64,000 nt of DNA from Escallonia rubra (Eukaryota; Streptophyta; Magnoliopsida; Escalloniales; Escalloniaceae), in assembly GCA_033065855.1 (NCBI GenBank), contig JAVXUO010000847.1, positions 1 through 64,000 on the forward strand. The letters run 5' to 3'. The notes under the pieces are model-generated. The model had not been told where the DNA came from, did not search any database, and saw nothing but the letters and a program-made list of their open reading frames with translations. This document shows positions 1-49,700 of the stretch, one piece after another; within the stretch, counting starts at the first letter, position 1, and each line of letters starts with the position of its first letter. Made by a program: the position numbers and the translations under genes.

Positions 1-44
1 ATCTTGTCCCCATCTCCGTCCGTTACACAATGTGGCGGATGGAG
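1..44 (+). repeat. Left terminal inverted repeat of the MULE (possibly truncated by the window)
   Basis: It pairs with 7973-8016 in inverted orientation, about 75% identical by eye. It contains an imperfect palindrome of the type GTCCGYTACA...TGTGGCGGA at about 17-40. A second palindrome of the same type, GTTCGCTACA...GTAGACGG, follows at about 73-97. Confidence 0.7.
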
Positions 45-441
45 TGGCAGTTTTTCCTTATCCAATATAACATCGTTCGCTACATAATATAGTAGACGGT
101 GTATATATACACACCAAACCCCTAATTTTGAAAGTCATCTCCCTTCTTTCTTCTTCCCTATCTTCCCAGCGACGTTGGCAAGTAGATATGTGCATAATCT
201 TCCCAAGAAGTCCTTATATCATTCAATTAATCACGTAAGTTCACAAACCAACGTTTTATTTGTGTATAATCTAGAGTTTGTGAGTATTGCGCATGATTTT
301 GATTATGTATTGTATATGTGTAGGGGTGTGTGTGTGTGTGTGTGTAGATAATGTATTATGCATGTGCGACTATTGGCAATTTGCCAATGTTTGATATAAA
401 CTTCCAAACTTGATGTTTTTGCATAATTTCAGTCGCAAAAA

Positions 442-2390
442 ATGGCCTTTAACCCCGGACCAGAAAATCCCTCCGTGTTATATGACCAAGCAAATCATAT
501 TAGTACATCTATCTGGAATGGACAAGTAAGATACTTATTTTTTGTTTATTTTGTAACTCTCACGAACATTGTATACATTTTGCTTTGCTTAAATATTCTT
601 TGTTAATTCGTAAGAAAGAGCAACACTTATCACAGTAGAAGTAACTGAACAATTCGGAGAGTGGCGATTGAACAAAACCCAGAAAAAATTACCGTATGGA
701 ATGAGTTTTGGGATTTTACTTATGGGAATATCTTTCAGCAACTTGATCAGAACTTAATAGGTGCCCTTGTTGAACGGTGGAGAAGTGAAACGAATATGTT
801 TAACTTCCCTTTTGAAGCAATAACCTTAGAAGATGTAGGGTACATCTTAGGGTTACCGGTGACGGGACGACCAGTTATTCCTGCTAGGGCTTCCACAACA
901 AATAAGAGAGTTTCTATGGACTTCTTTGGTTCGATACCTGAGAATGAATTTGGCAATAGTGGGATAAAGTTGAAGTGGTTGGTAAAAACCTTCAGGCTTT
1001 TGCCAGAAAACTACATAGATGAGATGCTTGTGCTACACACAAAGGCTTTCTTGCTATAGGTGATGGAGGCAATTTTATTCCCAACGACGACAAAGAACAC
1101 AGTTCAATACAAATATTTAGCTTTGTTGGGTAACTTGCAAGAGGTTGGGGAGTATGCTTGGGGTGCAATAACACTTGCATACTTGTATCGAGCATTGCAC
1201 AAGGCAACGAGGCCTGACTGCAAAGCTATATGTGCATGTCTCTCATTGTTGCAGGTATATCATATAACTCCTTTTAATTACATTTTTTATTAGTCAGTGT
1301 ACAATTAATTTGGACAACACAACTCTAATTTGTCTTTGTTCTCAGGTGTGGTCTTATAAACAGTTTAGTCTCGGCGCACCCAACCATAGGGAGGGAACCA
1401 ATAATGTGTGGCCTCGGTTATGCGGTTGGGAGTACAGTCAGAGGGAAAGCCACTACCCGAACAGAAATGATCCCCATCATAACATTGTGTTCTATCGGGG
1501 GGAGTTCGACTCACTATCTCCAGGTCAAATATTTTGGGCGTTGTACAAACATTTGGAGGGACGGGTGTCATAGTCGTTCGCATTCACACTCTCTGGGTAG
1601 CAACACACTCCACTGATCTATTTCGAGATCGCGGAGTGCTAACTACCGGATAACGCCATGCACCATTTTGAGTGCCTACAAGGGTTGCCAGCTGATGCCC
1701 TAGACATGAAGGTTAACAGGAACCTACCAAGTGTCCAAAGGTTTGGGTAGGTGAATGCGCTCGAATTTTGCGCTGCCGAACTTGAACTGTGGGATTCTTG
1801 GCAAGACACGCTGGCAGCCATTGTGTCGGCCTATGGTCAACATCGAGCAGTATCTGGGGTGGTACTACCTCATCACCCGAAGAGAATAGCCCTAATAAAG
1901 TGGACAAGAGGCCAGAAATACCGTCTTAGGGGTCAGATTGATGAGCTTAGGGCATTTGAGCTCGTAAGTTTCCTAATGGCTTTCAATTGAATTTGATCTC
2001 GTAAGTTTCGCATTCAATCTCATTCTTGTTTAAAGTTACTTATTATCTAATTAGATGTAGGTTGATGCCTCGCTCGCCTTCTTCAAGAAACTGAGTGAGC
2101 AGAAAGTATCTGTTGGATACCATGGGAGCAGATCTTTGCTCCCATTCTGTGATATTGGCGCATGGCTGCGGGGATTTTGTGAGCCGCTATACAGGACAAT
2201 CTTCGGACCTGAGCCCGGGAATGGATTATCCCAGGTGGCAGCCTCCCCATGTGAGCGAGGGATACGGTGATCCCTCGGGGCAGCTGGGATGTGTGATGCT
2301 TGGGGGCCACCATCGGGTATGGGAATGGCTCATTGGGATGAGTAGAGTCAGCCCTCGTTTGCTTTGCTTGGGGACTCGGAGGTTACATTA
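442..2390 (+). pseudogene. Plant mobile domain (PMD, MAIN-like / 'PP7 long form' type) gene, degenerate
   Basis: A first exon candidate is 442-525 (starts MAFNPGPENPS, ends SIWNGQ before GTAAG). The best-preserved part is 661-1059, with FNFPFEAITLEDVGYILGLP followed by VTGRPVI, the signature segment of the PMD where the family motif reads roughly 'PFGEMTPTLEDVALLLGLPVDGRPV'. Further exon-like blocks are 1060-1255 (LYRALHKATRPDCKA), 1346-1573 (VWSYKQFSLGAPNHR; FYRGEFDSLSPGQIFWALY), 1751-1960 (WDSWQDTLAAIVSAYGQHR, then a basic coiled stretch) and 2063-2280. In-frame stops separate several blocks, so I treat it as a pseudogene. PMD proteins of the MAIN/MAIL1 group act in transcriptional silencing in Arabidopsis; transposon-borne copies have no settled role. 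Exon borders beyond the first are approximate. Confidence 0.68.
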
Positions 2391-2765
2391 GCTACTCAGA
2401 CTCAAGTCACATAAGAGTTCAACTTTGTGAACTTCAACCTCTCTAAGTCACTGTCACTCGTCCCGGGGGCAGGACCTTCCACTTCTGGCCTTGGGATACC
2501 TGAGGAGCCTCAAGGAGGACAATATCCCTCGGTCAATCACCTGTCAATCCCTCTTATCTCAAAGGGAATATGTTGAAGCCTTTGAAGCCAGCAAAACATC
2601 CCCTAGTCCACCAACGATACTTTAGCGAGCCCCCACAACTACGCTAGGAAAGTGGTGTGGACTGCAGTGTCGTCTCGTGGGACGGAATGTTCACCCTCAG
2701 GTCGGGTCGTTGGTTGGAAGATACGGTGATGACTGCCTATGTAGGAGGTCAAAGTTTCTACTTGG

Positions 2766-2940
2766 CTGTCCGCTACACTATGTAGCGGACGGTCTAAGGG
2801 GCCAAATTTTTTCTAAATGTTGGAGGTCAATGTTTCTGCTAGGCCGTCCACTAGACTATGTAGTGGACGGTTAACACGGACAAAAATTTCTAAGTGTTGG
2901 AGTACAATGTTTCTGCTAGACTATGTAACGAACGGTCTAA
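2766..2940 (+). repeat. Three direct repeats (~80 bp period) each centred on a GTAGCGGAC-type palindrome
   Basis: Three diverged units follow one another. Each holds a short palindrome (CCGCTACACTATGTAGCGG; then CCACTAGACTATGTAGTGG; then a half-site, GACTATGTAACGAACGG) followed by GTCTAA(A/G)GGGCCAA and TCTAAGTNTTGGAG. The same palindrome type sits in both ends of the surrounding element (17-40, 73-97, ~7980-8000). The repeats lie between the two convergent genes. Binding sites for the element's transposase, or remnants of a nested related end, are the likely explanations; neither is proven. Confidence 0.65.
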
Positions 2941-3937
2941 AGGGCCAATTGTTTTCTAAGTATTGGAGCCCTATGAAGTGTTGGATGCTAATGTTTTTTA
3001 TTGGCCAATGGTACGGTAAAATGTAAAGAAACACAATTCATGAATAACCCAATGGTACGGTAAAATTTGAGTATCAATAAACATCTAGGACTATAATTCA
3101 AATACAACGTCCACATACTTGATGGCTCATAAAAGATTATTACAAAGTCCGTGAACTAAAGGTCCACTTCAGCTTCTTTTTCGTTTGCAATGCAAAACGC
3201 CTGGACTTATCCCCAGTGCCTTGTAATGGTTCTGCTTGTCATGGTTGGTTATTTTGCTTCACAATGCACACCTTCTAAGCTTTTTAGGTTGGGTTGCTTG
3301 TTCAATAGAGCTCTTCATCCGTGTAGATCTCTTGCGACCTTTTCACTGCGATATAATTGGATCCAAAGGCTGAATATCATTTTCTTCTTCCTCCACCGGC
3401 TCATCATCTTCTGATCCCTGCGTAGACTCAGTGTCAACCGTAAGACTGATTGAAGCTACTTCAAACTGGTCAACAATGGGTTCTTGCTGCTCCGTTATAT
3501 CGCGGAGATGTTTATATCCGGCCATTGTAGTAGCACCTTTTACGGCCAAAGGTGTGAACATTGTCACCAGTTAATTATACTACAATGTCTCTGATTCTTC
3601 AAAATCAGTATAAGGATGCTCCGGAAAGGCAATGATATCGTGCAACCTTAGTCCACCACGCCAAGACGTATTTATCGGGGATTGCCTTGATTTTCTTTTG
3701 AGTGAAAAATCGCAGAATATGTCAACACAGCATGCCATGGAACTCAAACTTCTTGCAAACACATGTCACCGAATCCATCTCTATGTTATGGCTCACCATA
3801 TATAGTCTACGCACCTTCTCAGGAGCGAAGTCGTTCATCAACGAATAAACCTTGTATTCCATGTAGACTTTCCTGCCACGTTGTTTATACTATATCGTCC
3901 CGGCTTTTGCAGCTCTACTGGGTATTGCATGAACATC

Positions 3938-3942
3938 TCCTT
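3938..3942 (+). repeat. Target-site duplication TCCTT, left
   Basis: Five bases identical to 6000-6004, directly abutting the TG of the solo LTR. Confidence 0.88.
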
Positions 3943-5999
3943 TGTTAGACCCCTCATATTTAAATGCTTATTAGAGAGAGAGAGAGAGAAGAAAATAAAA
4001 TAAAATTAGAGAGTATGGGGACGTAATGGGTATTTTGGAATTTTAATTGTTTTAGGAATATAAGTATATACCTTTTAAGACTTCTGATAACATACAGACT
4101 ATTTTCTTAAGCCTCCAGAGAATCCCTAGGAAGAGACCTTTGGTGTAATTGGATTAGAGAAGATCCAAGGCTTGGAGTTGATTTGTGCAATTAGAGGTAA
4201 TGATTTACTATTCTTTTGAATTCCAAATCAGCGTTGGACCGATCCATCCTATTATATTAAGATTTAATCTTTCAAATCTGCATAATTATTGGAATCAGTT
4301 TGTTTTAATTTTGAGGGTTTCGTGATCTCTGTAAATTGTTACCATCACTGCTCTTCGGATACAGACATTCTGACATTGCGTCCAAATTGGTTGCAGCAAA
4401 AAGGCTTTGCGTTATTCTTGTGATTTGTGTTAGCCGTAGAAGTTGGTAACTTAATCTAAATTCCATTGACCTGAAAATGGTTCAGCCCATTCTGTTGGTT
4501 CGAAAGCATTAGTATGAACCTTGTCATTAAAGACTATTGACCTTACTTGTTTTCTTTTTATTCTAGTTCCAATCATTGGCTTCTAAATTTGTCATCATCT
4601 TGTCATTACTACCATGATTCTTTTGTCTTCATACCAGTTGGAGTTATGGCAAGTATTCTATTAAGGAAAAAATTTGGTTGCTACTCCTGTTGGAGGAATC
4701 TTCCTCCTACTTCTTATATAGCGACAATCAATTGTCTCTAAATGTTTCTAGTGGCTTTTATTTAGTGACGCTAAAAAAATGATGCTAATAATTGTTGCTG
4801 AAAGTGTTAGAAGAAAGGTCGCTTAAAACATTTAGCGACTATTAATTGTCACTATACATGGGGTTGAAGGAAGATTCCTACAACCCGGGAATGAGCCAAA
4901 GTTTGTTCTTCTATTAATAATACTTTGAATGTTTGGCAATAGTTTTGTCATGTGCCTCTCGTGACATTATCAGTGTTGTTTTGACCCTTTACAGAACCGT
5001 GCTTCTTGGTTTCAGATTCATGGTGATTTGTTTTTCCTTCTCGCCTTTAAATTTTGTATTTTCGCGAGTTATTTTTTTAAAACTCCACTTTTGTTGATTT
5101 TATTATTTCACCTCAAGCCAATCACAAGCTAATTTATTGATTTGACAGTAATCACGCTATTTGAATGTTGTACCCTACTTTGGTGTGTGCCACCTGATAA
5201 GGTTTAACTTTTGAGCCACTCTTTAGCGTGCGTCATAGGCCGCTAGCTATGTGTGGCTCATGTGTAATCATCATTTATAGGCAACTCATTGGTGTCGGGC
5301 CTATTTATTGGCATCTAATTAATTATGTATTTCAGTGAGCCATGTCACGTGTATGTGATTCTTCTGTTTCTAACTTACCCACGTAGATTGGAGTGTGGGC
5401 TAGCTCAGTGAGATGAGCTAGAGATTGCAATTTTATTTTCTGAACCTTGTCCCACGTGTCAGTGATGGCATGTGTGAACTTATTCTGAATGACTCTCTTG
5501 TGTTTGTCTCTGTACAAAACTATCTTTTGACATTTTGAAATTCTTTTGCGTATCTGTTCCGTTAAAAAATTATGTATGTCCGCAATTTCGTTTTCTCATA
5601 CATTTTGTATCCTTTTTGGTTGGTCCGTTGAGCGACCTTACTGGGCATTTGGCTCACTCCCTTATTGTTTTCCTTTCAGGTGATCAACAGAGGCTAGGGG
5701 ACTAGATAACAGGGCTAGCTGTGTGACCGAGAGTTAGCAGTTTATTTTCAGAGTTAGTAAGACTATTTTAGAAAGTTATAATAAGAGGGAAAAATTGTGA
5801 TTCTGATTTCACTTTGGAACTCCAGGTAGGACTACTTGAGATTACGTAACTATTTTAAGTCAGTGTGGCAGTTACTCATGTTTCTTGGAGATTAATTCTT
5901 AGATGCTTTGAATACATTGTTTGGGAGACTTTTGGATATTTGAGGTTTTTCTTTCATTGTTTATTTGACATTAACGCTCCGAAAATTTGGGGTGTTACA
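3943..5999. mobile_element. Solo LTR (2,057 bp) inserted in the FAR1 gene
   Basis: The segment begins TGTTAGACCCCTCA and ends TTTGGGGTGTTACA, i.e. TG...CA. It is flanked by a perfect 5-bp direct repeat TCCTT (3938-3942 and 6000-6004). The FAR1 reading direction continues on both sides, which fixes the insertion point. No gag, pol, PBS or polypurine tract is seen inside, so this is a single LTR left after recombination rather than a full element. Its length and end sequence are typical of plant Ty3/gypsy LTRs of the Tekay/Del kind, but the lineage is an inference. It includes a GA microsatellite near 3974-3988 and a nested MITE at 4689-4883. Confidence 0.88.
4689..4883. mobile_element. Small MITE nested inside the solo LTR
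   Basis: About 195 bp with ~58-bp inverted arms: the left arm starts GTTGGAGGAATCTTCCTCC, and the right arm on the minus strand starts GTTGTAGGAATCTTCC. Both continue to a shared TAGCGACAAT/TAGTGACAAT block and a CTAAATGTTT block. The centre repeats the motif GCGAC/GTCGC. No clear target duplication was found. It is the innermost layer of a three-level nest (MULE, LTR, MITE). Confidence 0.7.
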
Positions 6000-6004
6000 T
6001 CCTT
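6000..6004 (+). repeat. Target-site duplication TCCTT, right
   Basis: Five bases identical to 3938-3942, directly following the terminal CA of the solo LTR. Confidence 0.88.
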
Positions 6005-7972
6005 CGTATAGACTTTTGTACCATTTACCTCCAGCGGGGTCTCAAGCAACATTCTTCTTTGTTTGTACGTACTTGTAAAGTCCGCAGCTCTTTCTTTCAC
6101 GAATATATGTGCAACCGTTTTTTGGGCACTTATGATGAAACTCTTCAAATTCGTAGATGTACCTACATAGCTATCGAAAAGGGCATTCATAGATTCACTT
6201 ATGCACATCGTTTTCATGTCCGCAGAAAAATACATTCTCGTGTAAACACCAACCCATTGCTCTTTGAGCTCATACAAGTGTTGGAGCCACTTGTGGTCTT
6301 GTAATGTGTAATTCTTAACAAGCTTTTCCACCTCTATTCAAATTCCTCAATCGTTAACTACTTGTTAACGCACCTGTCAAAATCTTGTTCAAAGTTTGGA
6401 TACTTTGCATAGACGTGATGCAGATGTTCAGGGTATTTGTTGCTTATATGCCAAGTGCACAAGTTGTGTCGAGTGTCTAGGAAGACGATAGCAATAGCCT
6501 TCTTCATTGCCAAATCTTGATCGGTGATAATAACTTTAGGTGCTTTGTTGTTCACGGCTTCCAGCCACGTCTTAAACAACCATACAAAAAAACTCTCGCT
6601 CTCGTCCCTTAACAATATGAACCTAAACAGGATGGAGTGATAATGATGATTAACGCCTGTGAAAGGAGCGAACGGCATCGAGTACTTGTTGGTACGATAG
6701 GTGGTGTCGAAAGTCAAAACATCCCCAAAATGCTGATAAGCAAGTCTTGAACGACTGTCGACCCAAAAATTGTGGTAACTCGGTGCTCGTCGTCAAGTTA
6801 TACTCATAAGTAAACTGCGGGTCCTCCATCTGCATCCGCTTCAATAGGCTCATTGTGGATTGAGCACCATTGATGTCATACACGGATCGGCTTTAGGTTC
6901 GGACCGTGTTACGAACGTCTGTCGTGTTGAAGTTCAGATTCTGAATTTCTCCAGCCTGTTCAGCAAGAACATTAACAATGTCGGTAGGACCTATCCACGC
7001 ATTACTCATTTTGTGAATCAGGCTCCTTGTGACATTACTCATCTTCTTGTGTTGATGCATCTGACTCACCTTCAAAGGGGTTACTAACGGGTGATTGTGT
7101 GTCAATTCCAAGCTAGTAATAAGCCAATGATCTTGCTTGGGTTTATGGCTTACGAACATCTTGACCTTGCAATTCGTGCGCACAAAAAAGTCCCGTCTTC
7201 GCGACGCATATCCTATTTCGTCATCACTATCATCATTACCGACGTATTTCTCATTTTGTAATGGGTGTCTCTGCTCCTAGACACTCATATAACTGTGAAC
7301 ATATATTTTTTTTGTTATGTTGCTTGTTCTAGTTGTCTAGATTCTAATGCCAAAACCAACCCTCAAGGAATACGCTAAAAAACATTTCCAATGTTCAAAA
7401 CGTTCGCCCCTAGATACGGGTCACTAGCATCTACTGGGGTGTTCGAGTTTGACATGAAATCTGACATTGTGAAACAAGACCTATGTAGAAATAAATTATG
7501 TTTAAGTATAACAGTTGTAACATTTTTTAGGCATGGAAATTAATTACAAAAATATAATTTCTTGAACATAACAAATAAAAATTACTTTGATGAATAGACT
7601 AATTTAGCATGCCAAATACAACAAACACAATCTCAAAAAAATTATGTTTAACTATCAAATTGTAACATTTTTTAGGCATGAAAATTAATTACAAAAATAT
7701 AATTTCTTGAACATAACAAATTAAAATTACTTTGATGAATAGACTGATTAAGCATGCCAAATACAACAAACATAATCTCAAAAAAAATTATATAAACATC
7801 CAAAAAAAACTTCAACATTCTACCTATAAGCTTTTGAGATCACAAACTTACCTCGCTTGAGTGAAGCTTGAAACATGGTTGCTTGAAGCTTGGAACTTGA
7901 AGGGAGCATAAAATGGAGAGCTGAAAATGGAAGAAGAGCTGAGAATTAGGGCATTTTTTGGTATATCTGCAA

Positions 7973-8016
7973 CTTTGTCCTCCACACTGGGTAGCGGACA
8001 AAAATGGGGATAAGAT
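7973..8016 (-). repeat. Right terminal inverted repeat of the MULE
   Basis: Read on the minus strand it starts ATCTTATCCCCAT and then GTCCGCTACCCAGTGTGG, matching the window start. Only one palindrome unit is present here against two on the left, so the right arm looks shortened by about 50 bp. Confidence 0.7.
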
Positions 8017-8671
8017 GTGACATGTTTCCAGCCAAAAATCCAGACTCTTCAATGAATAACTATCAAAAACAAAAGGAGGTAGGCTAAGGAAAAAAAAAGT
8101 GTGTTATCATGCACGGTTTTATATAATCCTAATAAAACTTAACCTCTTTAGGTGCTGTTACTATAAAACTTATCCTGTAAAAATTATAGTCTTAATAGAA
8201 AATCAAACCTTTAAGACTGTTACTATCTCTTAATTCCTTTCAGTCGGCACAACAGGCACCTTTCGCCTAGCGTCAGTTCAATCCATTTTCAATTACCAGA
8301 CAGCCTGCTTCAAAATCAAGCAGAATAATGCAACCAGTCACTTATTTTTGGATGTCATAACCTTCGGCAATCGGGTAGAGAATTCAAAAACAGAGAAGAG
8401 ATGCTTAATGTGTTGCATCTGCGACGGAGGTAAGCATGCCATCCAGTATTTAATCCCATTAGTGATCAAACCTGGATGACCAGCCTAAGAACTTAAAGTG
8501 GTGGAGCATTTGATGTTCTGAGATTGCTCGAGGTAACTTTAGAGGAATATTATGTTATTCTAAGCTTTACCCTGGGCTTGTGGCCTTATGCACCAAGTTT
8601 AACAAATTAATGTTACTATAATTACCACTTCTTTGCAAAAATAAGTTACAAGAGGGAATTGGAAACTTTTC
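8017..8671. other. Intergenic stretch, nothing recognised
   Basis: AT-rich DNA between the right end of the MULE and the next element; no open frame, RNA gene or repeat that I can support. Confidence 0.5.
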
Positions 8672-9746
8672 GGTCTGTTTGACAAATCTGTAGTTTTTAG
8701 TTTTGGTTTTCTAAAAAATAAAAACCAAAACTAGTTGTGGTTTTTATTTTGGACAAAAATTCATTGGTGTTTGATAGAAGACATTATTTTCAGTTTTCAG
8801 TATTTTTTTCTTCTTCTTTCCTTTTTTCTCTTTCTTTTTTTGATTCCTAGTCCCCATCTCAACACACAGATCACCACCAACCACTGCCCATTGCCACCAA
8901 CCCTCCGCCATGCTCGCCACCAACCACCATCCACTGCCACCACCCGCCATAACCACCCAACACCATCACTGAACCACATGACGTCACCACCACCCAAACC
9001 CATTGACGAACTGAACTCCACGATGTCACCGTGACCGATCCACCACGATGCGCAGATCTACCGCGTTTCATTGCAGATCTGGAAAACTTGGAGAGCAATC
9101 TAGCAAATCTAGCAAACTTTGGTTGGTATTTTGGGTGGCGGTGATGTTGGGGTGGCGACGATATTGACGTGGGTGGAGCAGATCTGTGATGGTACTGCTA
9201 CGACGGGTGGGCAGATCTTTGGTGTGGTGGTGATGGTTGGGTAGGTGAGTCGCGTCCGTGGTGGCGTTGGGTGGAGCAGATTTGTAACGATGGAGCATAT
9301 CTGCAACAGTGGGATAGAATAGTCGGTGCAGTAGCAGCAGCGGGGCAGTGATGTGAGTGGCGACGGTGGTGGGGTGGCGGCCTTAGTCTCTTTCATGGTG
9401 GTGGTGGTGGTGTCTTTAGGTGGGGTGGGTGGGGTTGAGGGGCAGAGGGAGGGCGATGGTGGCCATGGTGGCGACGCACCTGGTCTGGTGTTGGTGGTGG
9501 TTCTTCTGTGTGGTGTTTTTCTCTTAAATTTTACTCAATTTTTGCTTCTAATGAAATTCGAAGGTTGGATCTAAAAAAAAAAACTCAAAACTCAAAAATG
9601 GAGTTTTCAATAACAACTCCATTTTAAAAACTGGTTTACAAAACTGAAGGGGGGGGGGATGAAAACTGTGTGCCACGCAATTTTTCTTTCTCCAATTTAT
9701 AAAACTGGAGAAAAAACTGGAAACTTAAATGTTGTCGAACGCTACC
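8672..9746. mobile_element. Non-autonomous TIR element with a GGTGG/CCACC-rich core (hAT-like ends)
   Basis: The left end reads GGTCTGTTTGACAA; the right end on the minus strand reads GGTAGCGTTCGACAAC. Both follow the GGT..GTTYGACAA pattern common in plant hAT-type MITEs. Subterminal DNA is rich in runs such as TTTTGGTTTTT and AAAACTGG. The centre (8870-9500) is strongly strand-asymmetric CCACC/GGTGG sequence with repeated GCAGATCTG-like words, and it gives long spurious open frames on both strands. No 8-bp target duplication is evident, so the family call is tentative. Confidence 0.5.
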
Positions 9747-15209: not shown

Positions 15210-18200
15210 TTATCTTTTGCCATTGATGGGGTTGGATTCAAAGAACTTGGCAACAGCCTGATAGAGATTCTCCTCCTCAAAGGGCTTTGATACATACCCA
15301 TCCATCCCACAAGACAGACACTTGTCGTAAGTGGCATGGATCACATCAGCTGTCATCGCTAATACTGGCAAATGCCACTCCGACTTTTTTTCACCCGTTC
15401 CACCTGTGCATTCTGCAGTCACCAGCTCATTTGCCTTGCTCTCCATAACCCGGATATGACGAGTTGCTTCAAAACTGAACCAAGGAAAAATAAGTTTGAA
15501 ATTAGTTTTATTTGAATCACGGCAAATCTGTAGGACAACAGGTTGCTTGGACATCCCACAAGAACGATGCAATGGGGGTTATAAAATCAAAACAAACAAT
15601 GCACGAAAATTGACATTGTAACACATAATCAGTAGGACATGAAATCTTATCATGATCTAACATCTATTAAGAGGAGCAGTCTCATCCACTCCCCATAGAC
15701 TTTGTATTTGTGCCAATCCTGCACACGACAGAGAAACTGTGAAGTTCCCTTGAATACCTTTCAACCACTACCATGTTATGATCTCATGGACATATTATTG
15801 ATACTAAGGTAAGAATAACTTAATGTGAACTCAAGGTGATAACTTCTGAAAGCAGATTTCTCGATGTTTCCCTTTATATCTGAGTTATCTTTTTCTCCAA
15901 ATTTTTCTTGAGTTCAAGCGACATTTGAAATGGGGGATTCAGAACAAATTCTTGCAAAAAAAAAGAAAGAAGAAGAAGAAAGAGATCAAACCAACACCTG
16001 GAACGAACATTCAAGATAGAATACCCTGAACTGCACTTGGTCAAGGGTGAGAGAGAAAGTTCTTATAAAATGAAAGGACATTTCATTGTTAAGAGGGTAT
16101 TTCAGACAGCACTTAAAGCTAAATACTAACGTTCACTATCGGTTATAGTGAAAGCACCGAGGCAAAAGAGTAACTCATTTAATGATGTGGTTGATGTCAT
16201 GTTCTTTCCTAGGTACCATGGTTCCGAAGAGAATATAAAGAACTATTTGATTAATAAGACTACTGCGGAATGACACAAAGAACAGAAGGTCATTGTTTCT
16301 TCAATAGCAATAACAGATAAAACTTGACATTATAAATTTGACGTGCAGTTCTTGAGTAATTGAATGATGATTTTCTAAAGGAGAAATAAAGATTTATTGC
16401 ATGTCATGTCAACCAGAATATAAAAAAAGAAGGGTTAGTACATACCCATCCATTTCTGGCATTTGAATATCCATGAAGCAAGCATCAAAATTGTGTGGTA
16501 ATTGAAGCAATGTAAGAGCTGCTTTGCCACTATCAGCACACTCTACATCAGCCCCAAACTTCTTGAGTGCACCAGCAGCAACCGCACGGTTCACCCTATT
16601 GTCATCAACCACCAATATCCTCTTGCCATGGAGGAGGCTACGAAGGAAAGCAGAACTATTCAGCATGTCCTTCCCTTGTTGCGCTTTCTTCCCCATTCCC
16701 AACACCTGCTGAAGGCAGGCTGCCACCCTGCTTGCTCTCAAAGGTTTCATGATCACAGTATCTGCGAAACCTGCCGCTTTAGCTCTGTCAAACTCAACAC
16801 TGGTTATATTGGTTGCAAGAAGAACCGTGGTAGGTAACTTTATTTTGCAACCATTCTGTTTCCAGTCAAACAACCGTAGATTCAATCCACAATTGTCACC
16901 AAATATCCACGAGTCCTTCTCCACAAGAATCAGATCTGGCTGCCATTCGTTTCTGCGAGAGTGAGTACTAGTTCATAATTACACATAAAATGAAGAGTGA
17001 TAGTTCAAGTCAGGAAGTGAGATGATATAACTTCTGCGTTCTAAATTTCTCAGTTTGATTTGACAGGGGTTTGCAGAGATTATAGTCTTTAATTTCGTTT
17101 GATTATGGGGACTAAATGGCATACTACAACTCCCTGCATACTAAAACGGCTATAGTCTTCGATTTTTAGGCAATGGTACTCAAAGCATTTATTTAAGTAA
17201 CTCCGAGAGATTGATGTTCTCTGTTGATCCTTTGGCAGGCTCAAGAAACATCAGTTCTTGCGGTGGTGATATAATCTTCGTGGCCATATGCCGGTTGCAT
17301 TAGTTGGCCATTTATCTCATATTACTTTCTTCTGAAAAGATCAGCCATCTATATGAGGTGCCCCAGAACTAAGTCTGAGCTGTTCTCGGTTTACATAAAA
17401 TATAGAAAAAGGATGCCAAGCAGAAAAGAAACTTCAAAAAACAGAAAAGAAAATCACACAGACCAATACAAAAAGAAAGCAAAGGCTACTCTATTTATGC
17501 GTACCCATTCGATGCACAAACGACATATAAAGAACGTAAATTGCAACTAAGAATCATACTTTTTTGAGGATATGCATGTTTTTCAGGAACAATTAATGCT
17601 ATACATAAGCCATTTCAATAGTACAAAAAAAAAAAAAAAAAGCCATTTCAATGCAGTCTTCCTCATCAGTCCATCAAATATCACAAACAGGGGCATGAAA
17701 CCATGTGTTTTCAATAATTACATAAAAGTAATGTTTGACCTAAACATCACATCCACAAGGAAAATGTCACAGAACTACATGACACGAAAAACTTCATACT
17801 TCTCATAAATCAGATGGATTTCCAACTTGTGAAATTCTAAGATATTTTCTTGGGGGATGGAGGATGAGTGAGGAAGGAGAGCAATGATACTTACTTAGGC
17901 CTCACAGAACCATTTTTTCCAGAAGTAGTGACTGCCATCTTGATGCTACTTACAATTTCGACCAGCATGCCAAGTCTCTTGAGATGGTATCTGGTTATAG
18001 CGGCCCTAACTGGTTTCTCGTCAACAACGGTTGCTTTCAATCCTTCCAATGCCATTGTAAGATTACCGGAAAAGGATTTATTTAGATCAACGCCAACATT
18101 TTTCTCACACCTTCTAAGGGCAGCAGTAAAAGAAAATGTGCTTCCAATATTAGGGCGGCTAATGAAGTTTATCTGACCACCCATCAGTTCAACCAGACAC

Positions 18201-21200
18201 TTGCTGATGCTCAATCCAATACCCGTTCCTCCATAATTTCTAGAGGTTGAACTGTCTGCCTGCATGAATGGCGTGAAAACCCGCTTCTGGGCAGATATGG
18301 GGATCCCAATACCTGTATCCTCAACACATACCATCAAAGTAACATTCTGACCATCATCAGGACCAGTCAGTTGACTAGAAGCATTGTACTGGAATTCCTC
18401 GTCAGCAATTAAATGCTTAAAAGTGTCCCAACTATTTCGATCATCAGCTGCTTCACAGCCACTTAAAGTTTTAAAGTGACAACTACCAGATAGAGGTGCA
18501 CCTTCAGATCCACCATTCAAGAAGGTCTCCGATTTTGCATTCAGTAGAGCTTTTGCATGTTCAGCAACATGTACTTGAACAAATATATGTCCTCGCTCCG
18601 TGAACTGTCAAGAGGTAGATATTATTAGCATGGTTACTCAGAAGAACTAGATGAATAAGTTAGCTAAAAAGGTTCAATTGCAATAGTTATTCAATATACT
18701 CTTCAAGAATGTCAACAGAGTAGCAAGGCATGCATACATCACAAACCTTGACAGAGTTTCCCACAAGATTTGTAATGACCTGCCGGAATCTTCCTGGATC
18801 CCCCATAACAATGTCTGGAACTTTATTTGATACAAAGACAGCCAACTTCACTCCCCCAACAAATGATGAAGCGTCGCGAACAAAACATAATTATGCAAAC
18901 ACCAACCCCACCAGTCATTGATTTGAAACGGCAGAATGCAGAATGGACAAGGAAAGAAAAGAAAGATAAGGACTAAGTCAGTTCAAGAAGGAGACTACAG
19001 AATGCATGGATGTTGCATAAAAAGTTTCACACATATTAATAGCAGGCGGCAATTCTGGCCAAAAATGCTGCTAATGCATAGCAGTGTTTTCTGACCTTCT
19101 AAGATCAGACAGCTTATACGGGCGACAATGCTAGGATTATGAAGTGTCGATTCTATCAATATTAACAAGAACTTACCTCAATTCCTTTGTGCCTGGACTT
19201 CTCAGAAAATAGAGAGAGGACATCATCTAGTATCGAGCGAAGATCAAATGGAACTGCCTCCAGCTCTAACTTGCCAGCTTCAATTTTCGCCCTGTCAAGC
19301 ACTTCATTTATTAAGGTTATCAAAGCCTTTCCACAGGCCTGAGCAGTTTGAGCATAGTCCCTTTGGGTTGAACTCATATCTGTATCAAGAAGCAAAGCAA
19401 GCATCCCTGCAATCACATATGTAGATACATGAAATGGCTGATTACAAATTGTCTTGATATAAACCAGAGATATTACGAAAGTACCCAGGACATACCAAGG
19501 ATGCCATTCATGGGAGTTCTGATTTCATGTGAAACGGTAGCTAGAAACTGTGATAAGGCACAAATAGAAACTTAGATGAAAGAAGAGCTATAATTCGATA
19601 TAAGCAGTCGAAGGGATTCTGAAGAAGTTAGAAAACAAAACCTGAGATTTAGCAACATCAGCAGCTTCTGCTCGGACTTTAAGTTGTTGCATCTCGTGGA
19701 AATCATCCTCCACTTTGACTATATGTATTGCTGCACCATAAATCATATAACCCACTAATAGACCAATCACAAAGAATAAGAACGTAGTGGTGATCGCTGT
19801 CCATGGAGTAGGTGCCTTCTGAAGATACCTGCTTAAACGCCAAAACATTAAGAGATATGCTCACTTTTGCTCTTCAGTAATAGTCAAGTTGTCGTCACTC
19901 TTAACCTAATAACAGAAGGCAAAGATGCACTAACCTACAGATCATTTGGTGTTTCCGGAAAGGATCCCCAAAGTCCAGTGCGCTCACACGCTTAAGGGAC
20001 ATGTCACCATCTTGATATTGACGTCCATACATGATTAATGGATCAGAAGAGTTTGTAATGTCAAGTACATTCACCACAATTGCCTGGTTGCCAGCAAGTT
20101 GCCCAAGTAGATTCTCAACAAGAGACTCAACATCAAAGGCTCCACCAAGGTATCTAATTTCAGGAAGACCAAATGCAGCAGATTTATATCAAGAGGTCGA
20201 CAAAAAGTGAAATTGACAGTATTAATAAGCCTATTCTAGTACTTAATTTTTTATTAACTTTGTTTTGAATCACCTTTTTGGCATATTTAGTAAACTTAAG
20301 ATAGATAGCAACTCCTAGAAAGTATTATGAGGAACATAACCCTATCATAGGCAATTTTCTAAGTTATCAACATGCAAGCATGAGTTTACCAAGCAATGTC
20401 CCAACCATCTGCATGAAAGCACTGCCACAAGCCATCTTTGTTGAAACAAAGTGCAATCACAAAATGATTGGGGTGTTGGAAGACATGCTTTATCACCGAA
20501 ATTGGCTAGCATCAGGACAAGGAACAGAGATACCTTCGCACAAGATATAGTTACAATTGAAAAAAAGGTCATAGTAATGATTTTTCCTTCACTGGCCTAT
20601 GATGCGGAAAACTAGGACGAGCACATACAGTAGACAGAAAAACCTGGAAAGGTTGAAAAAGGGGAGCTACTACGTGAGCTCAAAATTGGTATACAACGTG
20701 AGACTCATAACTAGAAAAAAAGGCCGGTCCCCACACACGAGGCTTCCGCATTGAGGGGTCTGGTGAGGCTTAATGAACACAGCTTTACCCCCTACTATAG
20801 CGGAGAGATTAACCGTATAGTATAGCAACAAAACTGAGGTGGACGAAAAAGCTGGTATTGGAAGTGTTGTTTTCCTTTGTGCTTTTCCAAATAATCTGCA
20901 TCATAGAATGAGGAAGAAAAACAACGGTTGAATTTCCCACCAAACATGACTACATGAGCTAATAGCTTTGGCAGATCGCAACTCTCCAAACGATGATATG
21001 ACAAAGAAAATTGAATTATGCATGAAGAAGGAAAAGATAATAAATCTTTCCCTTCCTTCATGCATGTAAGTTGATTATACAGGGTATGAACCGACTGTGC
21101 CTCCATGCATTGTTTCTGCAACGGAAAGATATCGGTACCAACAGCATTTTTCAATGATCTTTCGAACCATCCATAAAAAATTTACCTTTTGTTAAAGAAG

Positions 21201-42309: not shown

Positions 42310-45300
42310 TCACTGGACTCGTCGTCCTCTAAAATCTTCTAGTTCATCATCTTCATCAGTAGACTCAGTCACACCATCTTCAACACTTTCCACGTCTTTC
42401 GCGTCATCATCTACGACTTCTTCTCCTACATGAAGTGTTGTTGGAAGAGGAAGATCGGCATCCTCGTTGTTCACCTCAACAGGTAACAAGACAGGTGGTT
42501 GGTCGGCTTGAAAGGTGTCTAGCTCACTATCATATGTCATGGGCAATTTCATGGACTTGATAACTGTGTACCAACGAGATTTGGGATTGGCGACGTCCTC
42601 CGCGTAAAAGACTTGTGCAGCTTGACTAGCAAACACAAAGGGCTCGTCTGATGCAAGTCTTGACTTGACATTGACATCTACAATCCCTTGAGAGCTAACA
42701 CGGATTCCTCTACTACATGTGACATCGAACCATGTACACTTGAACACTTCCAGGCAGTTTTCGGAACCCAAATATGCTAGCTCAACACTCTCATCTAGCT
42801 TTCCATAAAAATCCATGTAATTCTCAGCATAACAGTCGCTGTTGACCAAGACTCCATTGTTTTGGGTTTTTTTTGTTCGGTCATCATCTTTTACGTTAAA
42901 CCTAAACTCGTTGATGATATAGCCTCCATGACAGGATGCTTGTTTGTTAGGGCCTTGAGCTAGTAATTTCAAGCAGGAGGCCACCGGTCTATCCATTGAC
43001 TGAACCTATTGTAGATGACGGTAAAAATTAAGGATAAATCAGTATACTAATTGGCCACATAACTGTATATAACACATAATATAATTTCGTTAAAGACTTA
43101 CACTCTTTCTGAACCATTGTACAAATTGTGATTTCCGATGAGATTCAAGTCCAGCGGGATCAGTGATTAAAGATTCCGCATCGAACTCACTGCAAACCAA
43201 TATAGTTGACTCGCTTATCACACATTTTTAATTATGTACAGTAATTTTTTGAACTAAATCACATTAACTAACTCAACGAATGCTGAAACGTCATCACAAC
43301 CTAGAAGGGCATATATTGTTGCAGCACTGTACTCTTAATCCGTTAGCCATCGAGTATACGTTCGGTCGGCCGGACTACCTGACTGCTTGAATATTGACAA
43401 TAGCCCTTCCAAAATTGTGCTTGATCCGGGGTCATTTCGGCCTAGTTGATTTAACCTTGTATCAACATCAGGCCCGAAATATTGAGTACAAAAGTTTACA
43501 AGCTCTTCCATTACGTAAGCCTCCACAATTGAGCCATCAACCCGAGCCTTATTGTGAACTTTTTTCTTTAAATGGAACATGAACCTATAAGTTTAGCGAA
43601 TATAGTTAGGTGGAATATCAATGATAGCATGTGTTGCATTAAGTGTAAACAAACAACTGTAACAATTTAAAGATTACCTCTCGAAAGGGATACATCAACC
43701 GATATTGCATAGGTCCACCCATCTTAGCTTCATATGCCAAGTGAACATGCAAATGCTCCATTGAATCAAAGAACGAAGGTGGGAAAATTTTCTCCAGCTT
43801 ACAAATCATCACCACAATGTTCTTCTCAAGCACCTCCATGTTACTTACCCGGATCGTAGAAAAACATATATCTCGAAAGAAATGAGATAATTCAGTCAAG
43901 GTCTCGCAAACAACCCTTGGCAACAGTCCCCGGATGGCAATAGGAATGAATCTCTCCATGAATACGTGGCAGTCGTGACTCTTCATCCCTTGAAACTTGC
44001 ATTCTGATACATTGCAACAACGAGATATGTTGGACGCAAACCCATCCGGAAGCTTTAAATTCTTAACCCACTGACATACCTTCTCTACTTGTTTCTTGTC
44101 TAGACAGTAAGCTTCTTTCGAAAGTATCGTCCTCCCGCTGAATGTCCGAGGATGTAATTCACGGCGTACACCCAACTGTTGTAAATCCCTTCTCGCTTTA
44201 AGGTGATCTTTCGATTTCCCCTTGACATTCATCACTGTGTTGAACACATTATCAAAAATGTTCTTCTCAATATGCATCACATCCATGTTGTTTCGGATAA
44301 TGAGTGTCCTCCAGTAGGCTAACTCCCAGAAAATACAATGTTTCCTCCAGTTGTGCTCTTTCCCGTACCCTGGAATCTTTTGATCTGGCACACCCTTGTT
44401 GTGTGGTATGTCAGTATCAAGTGCCTCCAGGTGTGAGAGTACTTCTTCACCAGATGGGTAGTCCAGTGTGACAACCTCATGCTCAATTGTCCCGTCGAAT
44501 TTATCCTTCTGCCTACGGAACTGATGGTCCGGTGGCAAAAGCTTTCGATGACACCCAAACCACGAGGGCTTTCCGCCGTGCTTTAACGTATGAACGGGGT
44601 TCACGCCCATACAAGCAGGGTATGCTAGCTTCCCATGTGTGCTCCAGCCACACATCATTCCCAATGCGGGGAAATCATGTATAGTCCACATCAAAGCAGC
44701 CCTTATCTGAAAATTTTGTTTAAGGGATGCATCATATGTTTCGACTCCATGATTCCATAACTGTTTTAACTCATCAATCAACGGCCTTAAATACACATCT
44801 ATGTCCTTGTCGGGACTCTTCGGCCTCGGAATAAGCAACGACAAAAACATGTACGGCTTCTTCATGAACATGCCTGGTGGAAGATTGTACGAGACAATAA
44901 TAACAGGCCATGTGGAGTAAGGCATGCTAGACTGACCAAAATGGTTGAACCCATCGGTTGCCAGACCAAGTCTAACATTCTGAACTTCCTGAGCAAAGAC
45001 TGGATGCCTGCGGTCAAGCTCCTTCCACGCCTCTCCATCACCTGGGTGTGTCAGCACATCGACATCGTTGCTACGAGTCTCACGGTGAGCCCTCATATGT
45101 TCAACCATATTAGAAGAGTAGTACATTCTCTGAAGCCTTGGTGTGATCGAAAAATATCGTAATATCTTCCATGCAATATTTTTCTTCTTCCATTTGTCCG
45201 GTTTGTACCTCAAATGATCACATACTGGACACCATGATAAGTCTTTATTCTCTTTCCAGAACAATACACAATCGTTATTACACGCATCTATCCGCTCATA

Positions 45301-45923
45301 GCTCAACCCAAGTTTCCTCATCATCTTTTTGCGTCATAGTACGATGGGGGTAGCTTTTCACTTTCGGGCAATATTTCTTTGATTAAGGTAACAAACTCGT
45401 TAAATCCTTTCTCACTCAGCCCATGGTCTGATTTTAACTGTAATAACCTACTAACCACAGACAGTCGTGTGTGTTTCGGAGCTCCATCCCATAGTGGCTC
45501 TTCCGCAGCTCTCAACAATTCATAAAACTGATGAGCCCCCTCGTTCGGCTGTTGGGGATTGTCGTCACCGTGGTCGTCACCCCAGTCCACATTAGCATGC
45601 CCAGCATCCATAATCATATCTCGGTAATCATACCATGCCTCCTCCCTAACTTCAGCTTGACTAGCCGGGTGGGATGACAATACTATCGTTTCTCCGTGCT
45701 GCGTCCACCTTGTGTATCCACCCATAAAATCGTACCGACGAAGATGCCATTTTACTTTAAATCTTTTTCTCCAATGCAATAACTCACATCTACCACACGG
45801 ACACCTTATCTTATCAAAGTCAACATGTGTAGGATGGGCGTAAGCGAAGTCGAGAAATTCGTCAATGCGATCCTCAAAATCGTTAGCATTCTTCATTTTC
45901 ATCCAACTTCGATCGACCGACAT
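42310..45923 (-). CDS. TNP2-type CACTA transposase (Transpos_assoc - TNP2 - DUF4218 - DUF4216)
   Basis: Blocks in order: 45923-45321, transposase-associated N-terminal domain (MSVDRSWMKMKNANDFEDRI; FDKIRCPCGRCELLHW; YDFMGGYTRWTQHGE); 45324-43639, TNP2 core (CPVCDHLRYKPDKWKKK; LGLATDGFNHFGQSS; AYPACMGVNPVHTLKHGGK; NNMDVMHIEKNIFDNVFNT), running into DUF4218 (FIPIAIRGLLPRVV; HLHVHLAYEAKMGGPMQYR); 43580-43335 (GSIVEAYVMEELVNFC); 42996-42310, DUF4216 (VNSDCYAENYMDFYGKLDES; FKCTWFDVTCSRGIRV; FVFASQAAQVFYAEDV) and an acidic tail. The first two frames overlap by four bases in different frames, implying a small intron or a frameshift near 45322; gaps between later blocks fit introns. The core is open for 561 codons, so this copy is relatively young. 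Confidence 0.85.
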
Positions 45924-46070
45924 GACGACTGAGATAACGTACTGTATACCACCTTAAATTATGACTAATCATTAGGCATGGCCGATGTAAATATGAATGC
46001 ATGAATGTGACAACATGTCTATATCTATCCCCTCCATTCTCTAATAGGTAGTGGTCATATCCCATTCAGA

Positions 46071-46763: not shown

Positions 46764-49700
46764 TTAAGATATGTTAGGGCTAATTAGTGCTAATGAGGAG
46801 TACCTTGGGCTAATTATAGCTAGTCGGTGACTCGGGCATTGGGGGAATAACAGTTGTTTGAACAATTGATGCAGGAATAGGTGCTGAGTCTCTAACTGGA
46901 CTTGTAGCAACAGAAAAATAAACTTCAGCTGGGAGGCGAGTTTCAGTAATGGGAGAAACAGGTGGTGAAATATTTCCTGGCCGATTAAAATGACGGTCAT
47001 TGGAATCCTCACTAGAATCTTCTTCACCTTGGATGTCCCATGATCCGCTACTTTGCTATATAAATCAGAACAAGGTGTGAGCTATTGATAATAATGCAAA
47101 ACAAAAAGCATTTGAAATCCACAAACCTACTGAGGAGAAGATGCCAATTGATGAGTGGCAGCAACAGGAGGACCCTCACCACTAATAGCCTCTGTATCAA
47201 TTGGTTCATCAACATGTTTATCAGAAGAAACATTGTCATCTGAAGGGCTGCCTTCCTTACTGGTACTTTCCTGAGTTAAATCGATGGTGATACCACCCAA
47301 ATCTTAATAAGAGGGGTAAGAAATATAATAGGGCAATGGATACAAAAATCAATAATTTTTTTTTTACCTTTAGGGACATTGTCCTTGCTCTAAAGCGAGT
47401 CTTGCGTGCTATACTTTTCTTTTGAGTGGCTTTGGGTTTGGTCTTACATGTGCCAACCTGAGTAGCTAAGGAATCCTCGTGTTGATCAGCCGTCGCGATA
47501 AAAGTCTTCTTGTCTTTTTCGGGTACTCCACTCGGAGCAGTAGAGACTTCTACCTCAGTAGCTAACCTTTTGGCCAGTCTAACGCTTTGATCAGCTGGAT
47601 GAAGCAAATTAATGATCAAAGACCTTCGAAAGACTATCATTGGCATATATACAATGGCTGAAAAGTTCTTACTTGGGCTTAGAACGTTCAAGGATGTTGG
47701 AAAATTGATAAGAGCTGAAGTAGTCTGGGCAAGATGAATGATGTTCAAGGGCACGACCGATATCGGCTCATTTGATTGAGGATTAAAAGAAGGTCATCAG
47801 AAACTTGCTCCGGTCGTTTTTTGCCCTCTGGAATTTCTTTCTTCTTGTGAATAAGAGATACATCATCTTCTTCGTCGTCCTTTTCCATTTCTTCAGTCGC
47901 TTCTATCTCTTCTTCTGCTGATACGTCTTCGGAAGAAACATCTGATTCTCCGACGATATCAGACTCTTCTGGAGAAGATTCAATAACATGTTCTTTCCCT
48001 TTCTTACCCCGCACTTGTCTAGAAGTTTCTTCAGAAGGAGATTGACTTCTCTTTTGAGGCGTGGTAGGATTGCTGCTTTCTCCTATACCAATAGAACCAA
48101 AATATAATAAGCAAATTGATACCAGTAATAAAAAATGGTATTAAAACTAGGGTAAAATACCTGGTCGACGTGGGCTGTCTGGAGCAAGATGAACCATGCA
48201 ATCGACATGCTTAATGCCATCGTACAATTTGGAAACACAATCTTGGTACCACGAGTCAAAAGGGAGATCCGATCCAGTAGTAAGAATGACAAAATTGGAC
48301 ATGGTGAAACTGTCCATCGATCGGTCTACAATTCTATTTATCACTCTGATATGGATTTGAGTTATTCTCTTCATTCTTTCTTTTGCCTCCAAAAAGCCAT
48401 TATCGATAAAGAAATGGGTTGAAAATTCCCTGAACCAATCCAAATTGTTGACCAAACTGGGAGGGGGTGTATCATTCATAACTACAAACTTCCGATGGCG
48501 AGCTCGCGATTTGACCGCGCACATGAAGAAAGCTGGCCCATACCCTCCGAAAAAAATCTTGAAACTCCATGGACATCCCTTCGTCTATGTGGGTAGGAAG
48601 GGTTCGAAACCAAGCGGGTCTGAATTCTCTAGAAAGGAACAGATGTGAACCTTTGAGATGGGTGAAATCAAAGAAGAAACGGAAACAATATATGAAGGAA
48701 TGAAGCTTTATTTCGCCCAGAGAAAGGCGATGTCCATAGGTTAATAAAGAAGTATTAGGCTGAATAGGAATAAAAGGAGAAAACTCTGGAAAATAAGCTT
48801 GCAACAACAATTGGACCAACCAGAAATGATCGCCGCTCCAATGTATTTTCTTACCTACCATGGTAGACATTACTCTGTACAAACCACCCAACAACAAAGG
48901 CGCAAGCACATATTACCTACCGTGAGCTAAGCTAATAGCCAAATTCATATATTCTTTGATTAAAGAAAGGCTCGATACATAGAAGACATAACGAGATAGC
49001 CACATCCAAAGAAAAATAGCTAGCTCCTTCAAATCGGGCGAAGTATCAGTGTGTTTAGAACTTAATTTGATGAAATATTTCTCAAAAGTTTCAGAATACT
49101 TTGAGGAAGAAAGATCAAGAACCAAACCAATAGGATTATGGTTGGTTAAAGCATTGGCACGATTACTAATCTGCAAAAGGCTTGTTAAGGCACATATGTC
49201 AAAAATGGTAGGGGCCATCATCTTAGTCCTTAACATAAAGACATTAGTAATAATAGACCAAAAACAAAAAGACGAGGATAGGAGCCATCGGTCTACCTTA
49301 GGAGGATTTTTTGACATATGAATTAATTCATAGATACCTTGCCGCCTCCATTGATCGGCAAAAGAACTCGACAAACGATCAACCCACAAACCCCAATCGG
49401 CATGAATAAGGGTTGGCCAATATCTAATCAGCAAGCTAGATTCGTGCCAGCCTTTCCAATTCAAATAAGGTGAGCTAAGTAACATTTTCTCTGAATCATC
49501 AATTGGATACCTGAAACCAATAAAACAACCCTAAAGGGGGGTGAATAGGGTTTTTGAAATATAATGGGGAATTTAAACTAAGCACAATCATAAATCTCAA
49601 ACAAACCAAGTAATACTTCAATGAAGATGCTAACTAAACAATCTCAAACAATTAAAGAGCAATACGAAAAGAGATTGAGTTAGAGATACTTGATAAGGAG

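Follow-up and report, generated by a model that had tools for sequence, protein, structure and literature searches.

The first 8 kb of a 64,000-nucleotide stretch of the Escallonia rubra genome (assembly GCA_033065855.1, contig JAVXUO010000847.1, positions 1–64,000; hereafter the window, G000:C1411:1-64000) hold one degenerate Mutator-like element (MULE), in which a gene with a plant mobile domain (PMD) and a FAR1/MULE transposase gene lie on opposite strands and face each other. The source plant is a campanulid asterid, the assembly comprises 566 Mb in 3,222 contigs, and the window begins at a contig start. The element runs from position 1 to approximately 8033 in the order PMD gene (+), palindrome array, transposase gene (–), and the two genes and their convergence are as the original prediction described them. 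In related copies the PMD gene runs into a ULP1 protease, a SUMO-protease-like cysteine protease; the window copy and that on contig C1410 align only to the linker preceding ULP1. The C1410 copy is 96.6% identical to that in the window over a 9.9-kb alignment, and because this identity extends into the right flank it is probably an allele or segmental duplicate. The window thus holds a dead, truncated copy of a transposon family whose young subfamily has three genes (including one with a B3 domain) and whose other members have two. That two convergent genes, an array between them and long terminal inverted repeats (TIRs) make up one unit is close to certain. As the best overall explanation we lean slightly towards a degenerate TIR MULE with a FAR1/SWIM (Jittery-like) transposase, convergent with a PMD-ULP1 gene that may have a VANC-like anti-silencing role. 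The features of the window copy are these:

1–100 (+): left (PMD-side) TIR, inner part, with a 33/44 match to 7973–8016; its outer part lies beyond the contig start and is continued in C1410 and siblings
442–525 (+): PMD exon 1 (MAFNPGPENPSVLYDQANHISTSIWNGQ), placed by its ATG context and by tblastn with the young PMD-ULP1 protein, and matched in siblings
649–1260 (+): PMD exon 2, N-terminal half of the PMD, in open frames (Pfam PMD, E = 5.6e-19 and 2.4e-15)
1316–1984 (+): PMD exon 3 region, C-terminal half of the PMD, broken (Pfam E = 4.9e-05, below the cut-off; tblastn 56% over 229 aa)
2061–2743 (+): exon 4 remnant, the linker before the ULP1 domain, aligning only to residues 1–253 of the young exon 4
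2739–2975 (no strand): tandem array with a 78-base period (Tandem Repeats Finder score 220)
3205–3942 (–): transposase, C-terminal part (tblastn 54% over 275 aa against the young transposase, match 3205–3963)
3938–3942 (no strand): target duplication TCCTT, left copy, from the sequence and sibling comparison
3943–5999 (–): insertion resembling a solo long terminal repeat (LTR), TGTTAGACCCC...GGGGTGTTACA, within the transposase gene, from genome matches; absent from siblings
6000–6004 (no strand): target duplication TCCTT, right copy, from the sequence and sibling comparison
6005–7512 (–): transposase, N-terminal part, frameshifted, with FAR1 at ~7082–7207 and MULE at ~6439–6720 (Pfam, tblastn)
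7917–8033 (–): right (transposase-side) TIR, inner part, from genome matches and sibling alignment

The inverted match between 1–44 and 7973–8016, which had been taken to mark the ends of the element, is real. The two segments are identical at 33 of 44 positions without gaps when one is reverse-complemented, and this is the best ungapped match to 1–44 within the 64 kb on either strand (self excluded); the runners-up (28/44) lie in the internal array, so the match is not due to chance. Positions 1 and 8016 were nevertheless rejected as termini, since they lie in inner parts of longer TIRs, the first of them at the contig edge. In C1410 the repeat continues outward past the window start. When the transposase ends of 20 loci (L009–L028) and the left end of C1410 are aligned with the window, the TIR is seen to run outward through TTTGGCTGACAACATGTCAC in C1410 and most siblings, and in most loci the common repeat reaches approximately 200–300 bases further, to GGATCAGCT, mostly followed by (TA)n or a similar microsatellite. 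Complete family termini are GGAGCTGATCC or GGGAGCTGATCC adjoining microsatellite. On the left side, judged from C1410, about 100 outermost bases have been replaced or lost, and on the right the family likeness fades after ~8033, so that a target duplication is unreadable for the window copy.

The PMD gene occupies 442–2743 on the plus strand and contains stops and frame changes; exon 2 is damaged by an in-frame stop at 1057–1059 and a frame change near 640–660. A catalytic core of ULP1 was not detected in the window copy; the Peptidase_C48 match of the young exon 4 starts at 243. The proteins most closely related to the element's PMD gene are two from Escallonia rubra. The array contains imperfect palindromes GTCCGCTACAnTnTGTAGCGGAC at 2767–2790, 2845–2868 and 2910–2933, it belongs to a direct-repeat family common to both element ends, and arrays are also present in the young element and siblings. 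The transposase gene (7512–3205 on the minus strand) has Pfam matches to FAR1 (E = 5.4e-07) and MULE (PF10551, E = 1.5e-30) and is split by the insertion at 3943–5999. We rejected this segment as part of the original element because it is absent from siblings, is repeated genome-wide and is flanked by the five-base TCCTT: scoring 40 of 5,785 candidates gave 72 matches in the genome, many of which stop at the insertion termini, and the insert-free junction is crossed by 16 matches in 15 of the 22 loci compared. Genome searches here scored the best candidates only, and all match counts are lower bounds. With its PMD stops, the loss of the protease core and the transposase split by a solo LTR, the window copy is dead. 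Nested in the solo LTR (4663–4910) is an inverted repeat with 100-base arms (73%), possibly a miniature inverted-repeat transposable element (MITE).

Searches with window positions 1–150 (44 matches from 40 scored candidates) and with the right end (40 matches from 40 of 186 candidates scored) identify related copies, and 19 non-allelic old loci (L010–L028) were fetched around right-end matches. Seven of these carry a PMD gene or part of one convergent with a transposase (L010, L014, L021, L022, L023, L024 and L026), and an eighth (L013) has a ULP1 exon in the same sense; L011, L012, L015 and L028 are not informative. An intact gene was seen in none of the 19, the longest frame over the searched domains being 351 aa (L020). 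L023 is a complete old element, with both genes, each broken, between matching TIRs of 218 bases (88% identical); its PMD-side end is GGAGCTGATCC beside (TA)n and its transposase side lies beside (TA)n(TG)n.

An intact counterpart is present in the same genome. A PMD search returned 216 matches (112 scored of 5,238 candidates), and among the matches listed 44 PMD rows share a single score (168.7 bits), of which 43 have a 468-aa open frame. One member on contig C1503 (L030+L032, 168.9 bits) is a complete element of ~9.5 kb bounded by (TA)n / GGGAGCTGATCC ... GGATCAGCTCCC / (TA)n, with a TIR of approximately 270 bases (272 bases at 94% between its right end and the left end of copy L031). Its PMD-ULP1 gene is free of stops over its five exons, whose GT-AG borders were set by eye, and encodes 927 aa, with Pfam matches to PMD (4.5e-47) and, on two exons, Peptidase_C48 (0.00035 and 2.1e-06). 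The ULP1 part has His, Asp, Gln and Cys aligned with those of the SENP2 active site, which we take to be the catalytic residues of SENP2. Among 751 and 840 candidates, no homologues of the ULP1 regions of the two subfamilies were found at E ≤ 0.001. The transposase is a 783-aa open frame on the minus strand with FAR1 (1.2e-12), MULE (3.8e-33) and SWIM (5.4e-05) domains, and the element also contains a palindrome array and a small gene of two exons that encodes one B3 DNA-binding domain (3.1e-09; minus strand, ~8335–8800 of L030 and L032 concatenated). L031 matches this element at 99.5% over 2,991 bases, 97.8% over 1,968 and 93.8% over 2,047 including the array. The family is young in this genome, with recent, near-identical copies and open frames. 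Both complete elements, L023 and the young one, sit in microsatellites on both sides, where the length of a target duplication (8–11 bp was expected) is unreadable. At ~2763–2905 of L030 a short element with related termini (GAGCTGATCC...) adjoins the (TA)n that also borders the young element and resembles a MITE derivative in a microsatellite-targeted array.

Linkage of the two genes was examined in the first 18 rows of the 168.7-bit group by reading 801 bases at the predicted transposase distance; one of these loci (C85) was known beforehand to carry a transposase. Sixteen of the 18 have it, at 99.2–100% aa identity and always convergent, and seven of these slices show no difference from the reference element across all 801 bases. 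Of the other two, L043 is all N and L035 is discussed below. These data bear on one alternative, two unrelated insertions lying side by side with inverted ends drawn from different elements. The window copy is truncated, begins where the contig does and has an LTR nested in it, and neighboring or nested copies occur at L010, L022 and L024 (and also at L011), all of which is what such an origin might leave behind. The same order nevertheless recurs in seven siblings and two complete elements, and left- and right-end matches form ordered pairs 6–12 kb apart on C1588, C2031 and C2567 as well as C1410 and C1411, with a wider spacing of 19.5 kb on C1584. With the 16 linked loci we reject this explanation for the family, and regard it as virtually untenable. 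The claim of one transposing unit therefore holds at the family level, where L023 and L030+L032 have both genes between matching TIRs, and not for the window copy as an intact element.

The unit is also kept in a subfamily whose transposase is only 50% identical. L053 (C1738) has the same layout with open frames, PMD exons 43–50% identical to those of the young element, a transposase with FAR1 (6.3e-14) and SWIM (3.3e-07) domains, and, between its genes, a distinct tandem array with units of ~167 bases; L055 (C1209) has a second PMD of this kind. Among the matches listed, seven of the eight PMD-MULE pairs and eight of the nine ULP1-MULE pairs within 10 kb are convergent (112 PMD rows with second-half matches left out, 150 ULP1 rows and 150 MULE rows).

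Comparison of L030 with four old copies (L022, L023, L024 and L026) gives ratios of nonsynonymous to synonymous substitution (dN/dS) of 0.28–0.37 for the transposase, 0.33–0.44 for PMD exons 2–3 and 0.44–0.48 for the ULP1 part, with all bootstrap limits below 1; with eight old loci, of which these four are the bootstrap set, the ranges are 0.25–0.58 for the PMD exon and 0.28–0.42 for the transposase. Because the old copies carry stops, the figures are taken as upper values for the living lineage. The NG86 comparison of L030 with L053 returned no dS (–1, taken as saturated), and selection is therefore judged from the old copies. These ratios indicate purifying selection on both the PMD-ULP1 and transposase genes, and they speak to whether the transposase spreads PMD-ULP1 simply as a captured, Pack-MULE-like passenger that does nothing for the element. 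Gene capture is frequent in MULEs, and ULP1 has been repeatedly gained and lost on those of grapevine (PMC2528002); the B3 gene was detected in the young subfamily only, and not in the window, siblings or L053, and six old loci have no detectable PMD (see below). We consider a passenger role decidedly unlikely, given that the same gene is kept in the same orientation and position beside transposases of 50% identity, that 43 of the 44 equal-scoring PMDs listed are open, and that the PMD ratios lie below 1.

The MULE domain in both the window and young copies and the long TIRs of L023 and the young element place the family in the MULE superfamily, and the N-terminal FAR1 together with SWIM in the young and L053 transposases is as in the Jittery-like group. 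In a published survey table, a PMD, often antisense, is given for the majority of plant MULE groups, VANDAL is entered as 'PMD and/or DUF', and the FAR1-bearing Jittery plant sub-group has a single open reading frame and no PMD (PMC6446971). MUDR, MDR, MUDRAVI2 and other MULEs with an antisense PMD resemble the present family in having the PMD opposite a SWIM-bearing transposase, but in the available part of that source they have no N-terminal FAR1 listed and no ULP, and the family here has both (PMC6446971). ULP1-bearing Jittery-like MULEs of melon and grapevine share a ULP1 sequence downstream of a Jittery-like transposase, but the words 'plant mobile' occur nowhere in their description (PMC2528002); the ULP of KI-MULEs is antisense to mudrA (PMC2528002), as in the eight convergent ULP1-MULE pairs of nine found here. 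PMD-C genes captured by MULEs likewise have a proposed anti-silencing role, but are described as PMD-transposase fusions in grasses and Amborella (PMC5418596), whereas here PMD and transposase are encoded on opposing strands, both in the window and its seven siblings and in the two subfamilies. MuTAnT (PMC4486113) and SaTars (PMC5907723) are also TIR MULEs flanked by (TA)n; the MuTAnT terminus mask is GGGGTTTGCTAGAACA as against GGGAGCTGATCC here, and the accessible portions of these accounts mention no PMD-ULP1 gene.

A further parallel is with the VANDAL/VANC and Kaonashi (KIU) MULEs of Arabidopsis, which have a DUF1985-type gene (with ULP1 in KIU) beside a MULE transposase and non-coding tandem arrays (PMC5735166, PMC10398659, PMC13317346). 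VANC proteins contain DUF1985 and DUF287 and have a known anti-silencing role (PMC5735166), some VANC genes carry ULP1 (PMC13317346), and VANC binds or acts on motifs in non-coding tandem repeats (PMC10398659). These elements differ in being described as non-TIR (PMC13317346), with DUF287 in VANC, whereas the present family has long TIRs, a FAR1-type transposase and a PMD well over the Pfam cut-off; TIR absence is not strictly defining, since TIRs of 46–174 bp are listed for the VANDAL group elsewhere (PMC6446971). The PMDs of L053 and L055 match DUF1985 at scores below the Pfam cut-off (E = 1.1e-07 and 7.7e-08, positions 25/26–138 of 141), with weaker matches for L033 (0.0068), P0005 (0.011) and P0003 (0.046), and none in the Pfam scan for the host-type L054 PMD. 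DUF1985-profile matches (145, with the PMDs of the elements, such as L053 and L055, counted in) form 38 pairs with MULE matches within 10 kb, 37 of them convergent, compared to ~0.77 pairs expected by chance. This comparison used all 145 DUF1985 and 150 MULE rows with 18 of the 150 listed ULP1 and 11 PMD rows chosen for shared contigs, so that its overlap count of 11 is a floor by construction. We read the likeness of PMD and DUF1985 as a sign of common ancestry.

We propose that the FAR1-MULE-SWIM transposase would move the whole unit and that PMD-ULP1 may serve it as a VANC-like, sequence-specific anti-silencing factor. It could recognize the element's own non-coding repeats, namely the TIR and array palindromes in one subfamily and the 167-base array in another, with the ULP1 part perhaps stripping SUMO from silencing proteins. 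The candidate target is the palindrome CCGCTACANTNTGTAGCGG (≤3 mismatches), of which the young element has 31 copies: 18 in the array, five in the gap between the B3 and transposase genes, four in each TIR and none in the genes. There are none in window positions 9001–64000 or in any of 20 base shuffles, and in seven old siblings the matches are also mostly in the gene gap and near the ends. Anti-silencing has been proposed before for transposon PMDs (PMC5418596, PMC8616336), and the idea seems plausible and now better grounded; we put this mechanism forward tentatively, as somewhat short of an even prospect. Alternatively, PMD-ULP1 could aid the transposition reaction, either as a mudrB-like accessory or by deSUMOylation of the transposase or host repair factors. 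The protease active-site residues are kept, the palindromes occur in the TIRs as well as the array, and MuDR-type elements have a second gene, mudrB, beside mudrA (PMC4486113); such a role is compatible with all three, but the likeness to the DUF1985 of VANC points elsewhere and we think it rather improbable.

Several observations weigh against a strict two-gene unit with a VANC-like factor. Six of the 19 old loci (L016–L020 and L027) have a transposase, but neither PMD nor ULP1 was detected in the remainder of the fetched stretch, so that transposase-only copies may exist; L025 is a short element with a PMD between TIRs and no transposase, and L035 likewise lacks it. The two genes are thus separable. 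Divergent nearby pairs occur on C2883 and C1569. The DUF1985 scores of L053 and L055 (32.3 and 32.8 bits) are just under the Pfam curated cut-off of 35.1, the young 468-aa PMD reaches only E = 0.055, and in the exons scanned with Pfam, DUF287 does not appear. The palindrome CCGCTACANTNTGTAGCGG is absent from L053, where no motif sharing between array and ends was found either (repeated 9-mers number three in the left end and none in the right, compared to 11 and eight inside the genes), and motif sharing therefore holds for one subfamily only. An AlphaFold model of the PMD protein P0002 (32-row alignment) does not reach usable quality (mean pLDDT 46).

L033 and L034 (C2557 and C240) represent a second family of PMD-bearing MULEs, in which a MuDR-type transposase (PF03108 in L033, broken by a stop in L034) shares its strand with the PMD. 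In a tree, the PMDs of this family cluster with seven MAIL2-type proteins of the host (support 95/95) and not with those of the FAR1-type elements; the ten FAR1-type PMDs fall together (62/89) and form one side of a split in 92% of bootstrap trees. The placement of P0003 is unsettled, the host row L054 sits on a very long branch, and the tree leaves 10 of its 18 inner branches open. A PMD-ULP1 gene carried by a FAR1-type TIR element, the link to DUF1985 and the young family appear to be new within the open-licence library searched, in which we found no match for DUF1985 together with the plant mobile domain. In tea, PMD and transposase genes are reported as sources of phased small interfering RNAs (PMC10673657).

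The host PMD proteins MAIN and MAIL1 silence transposons, and what PMDs do on transposons is a question that this family could help to address: a young, multi-copy group with open PMD-ULP1 genes, a matching transposase and candidate binding arrays provides a concrete system for the counter-silencing idea. A wider and more speculative reading, which we regard as unlikely, is that PMD and DUF1985 are one family, that the PMD-ULP1 of FAR1-MULEs is an array-reading anti-silencing factor with MAIN and MAIL1 as domesticated relatives or targets, and that silencing and counter-silencing are two sides of one domain. If PMD and DUF1985 were one family, the Arabidopsis work on VANC and that on MAIN and MAIL1 would become a single subject. 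For annotation, we note that plant gene models with PMD, DUF1985 or ULP1 can belong to transposons.

Elsewhere in the window there is another open PMD stretch (48916–49530, minus strand; E = 7.8e-09), 25% identical to a host-type PMD of C922, its sole match among eight queries. Contig C922 itself (G000:C922:1278226-1296817) contains four adjoining uninterrupted PMD genes with whole-profile matches of 373–384 bits, which are probably host genes. The minus strand of the window also contains CACTA-type genes at 42313–45953 (tnp2 transposase with DUF4216, DUF4218 and Transpos_assoc) and, at 16412–18607, cytokinin-receptor-like histidine kinase exons (Receiver_CRE1, HATPase_c) that probably belong to a host gene.

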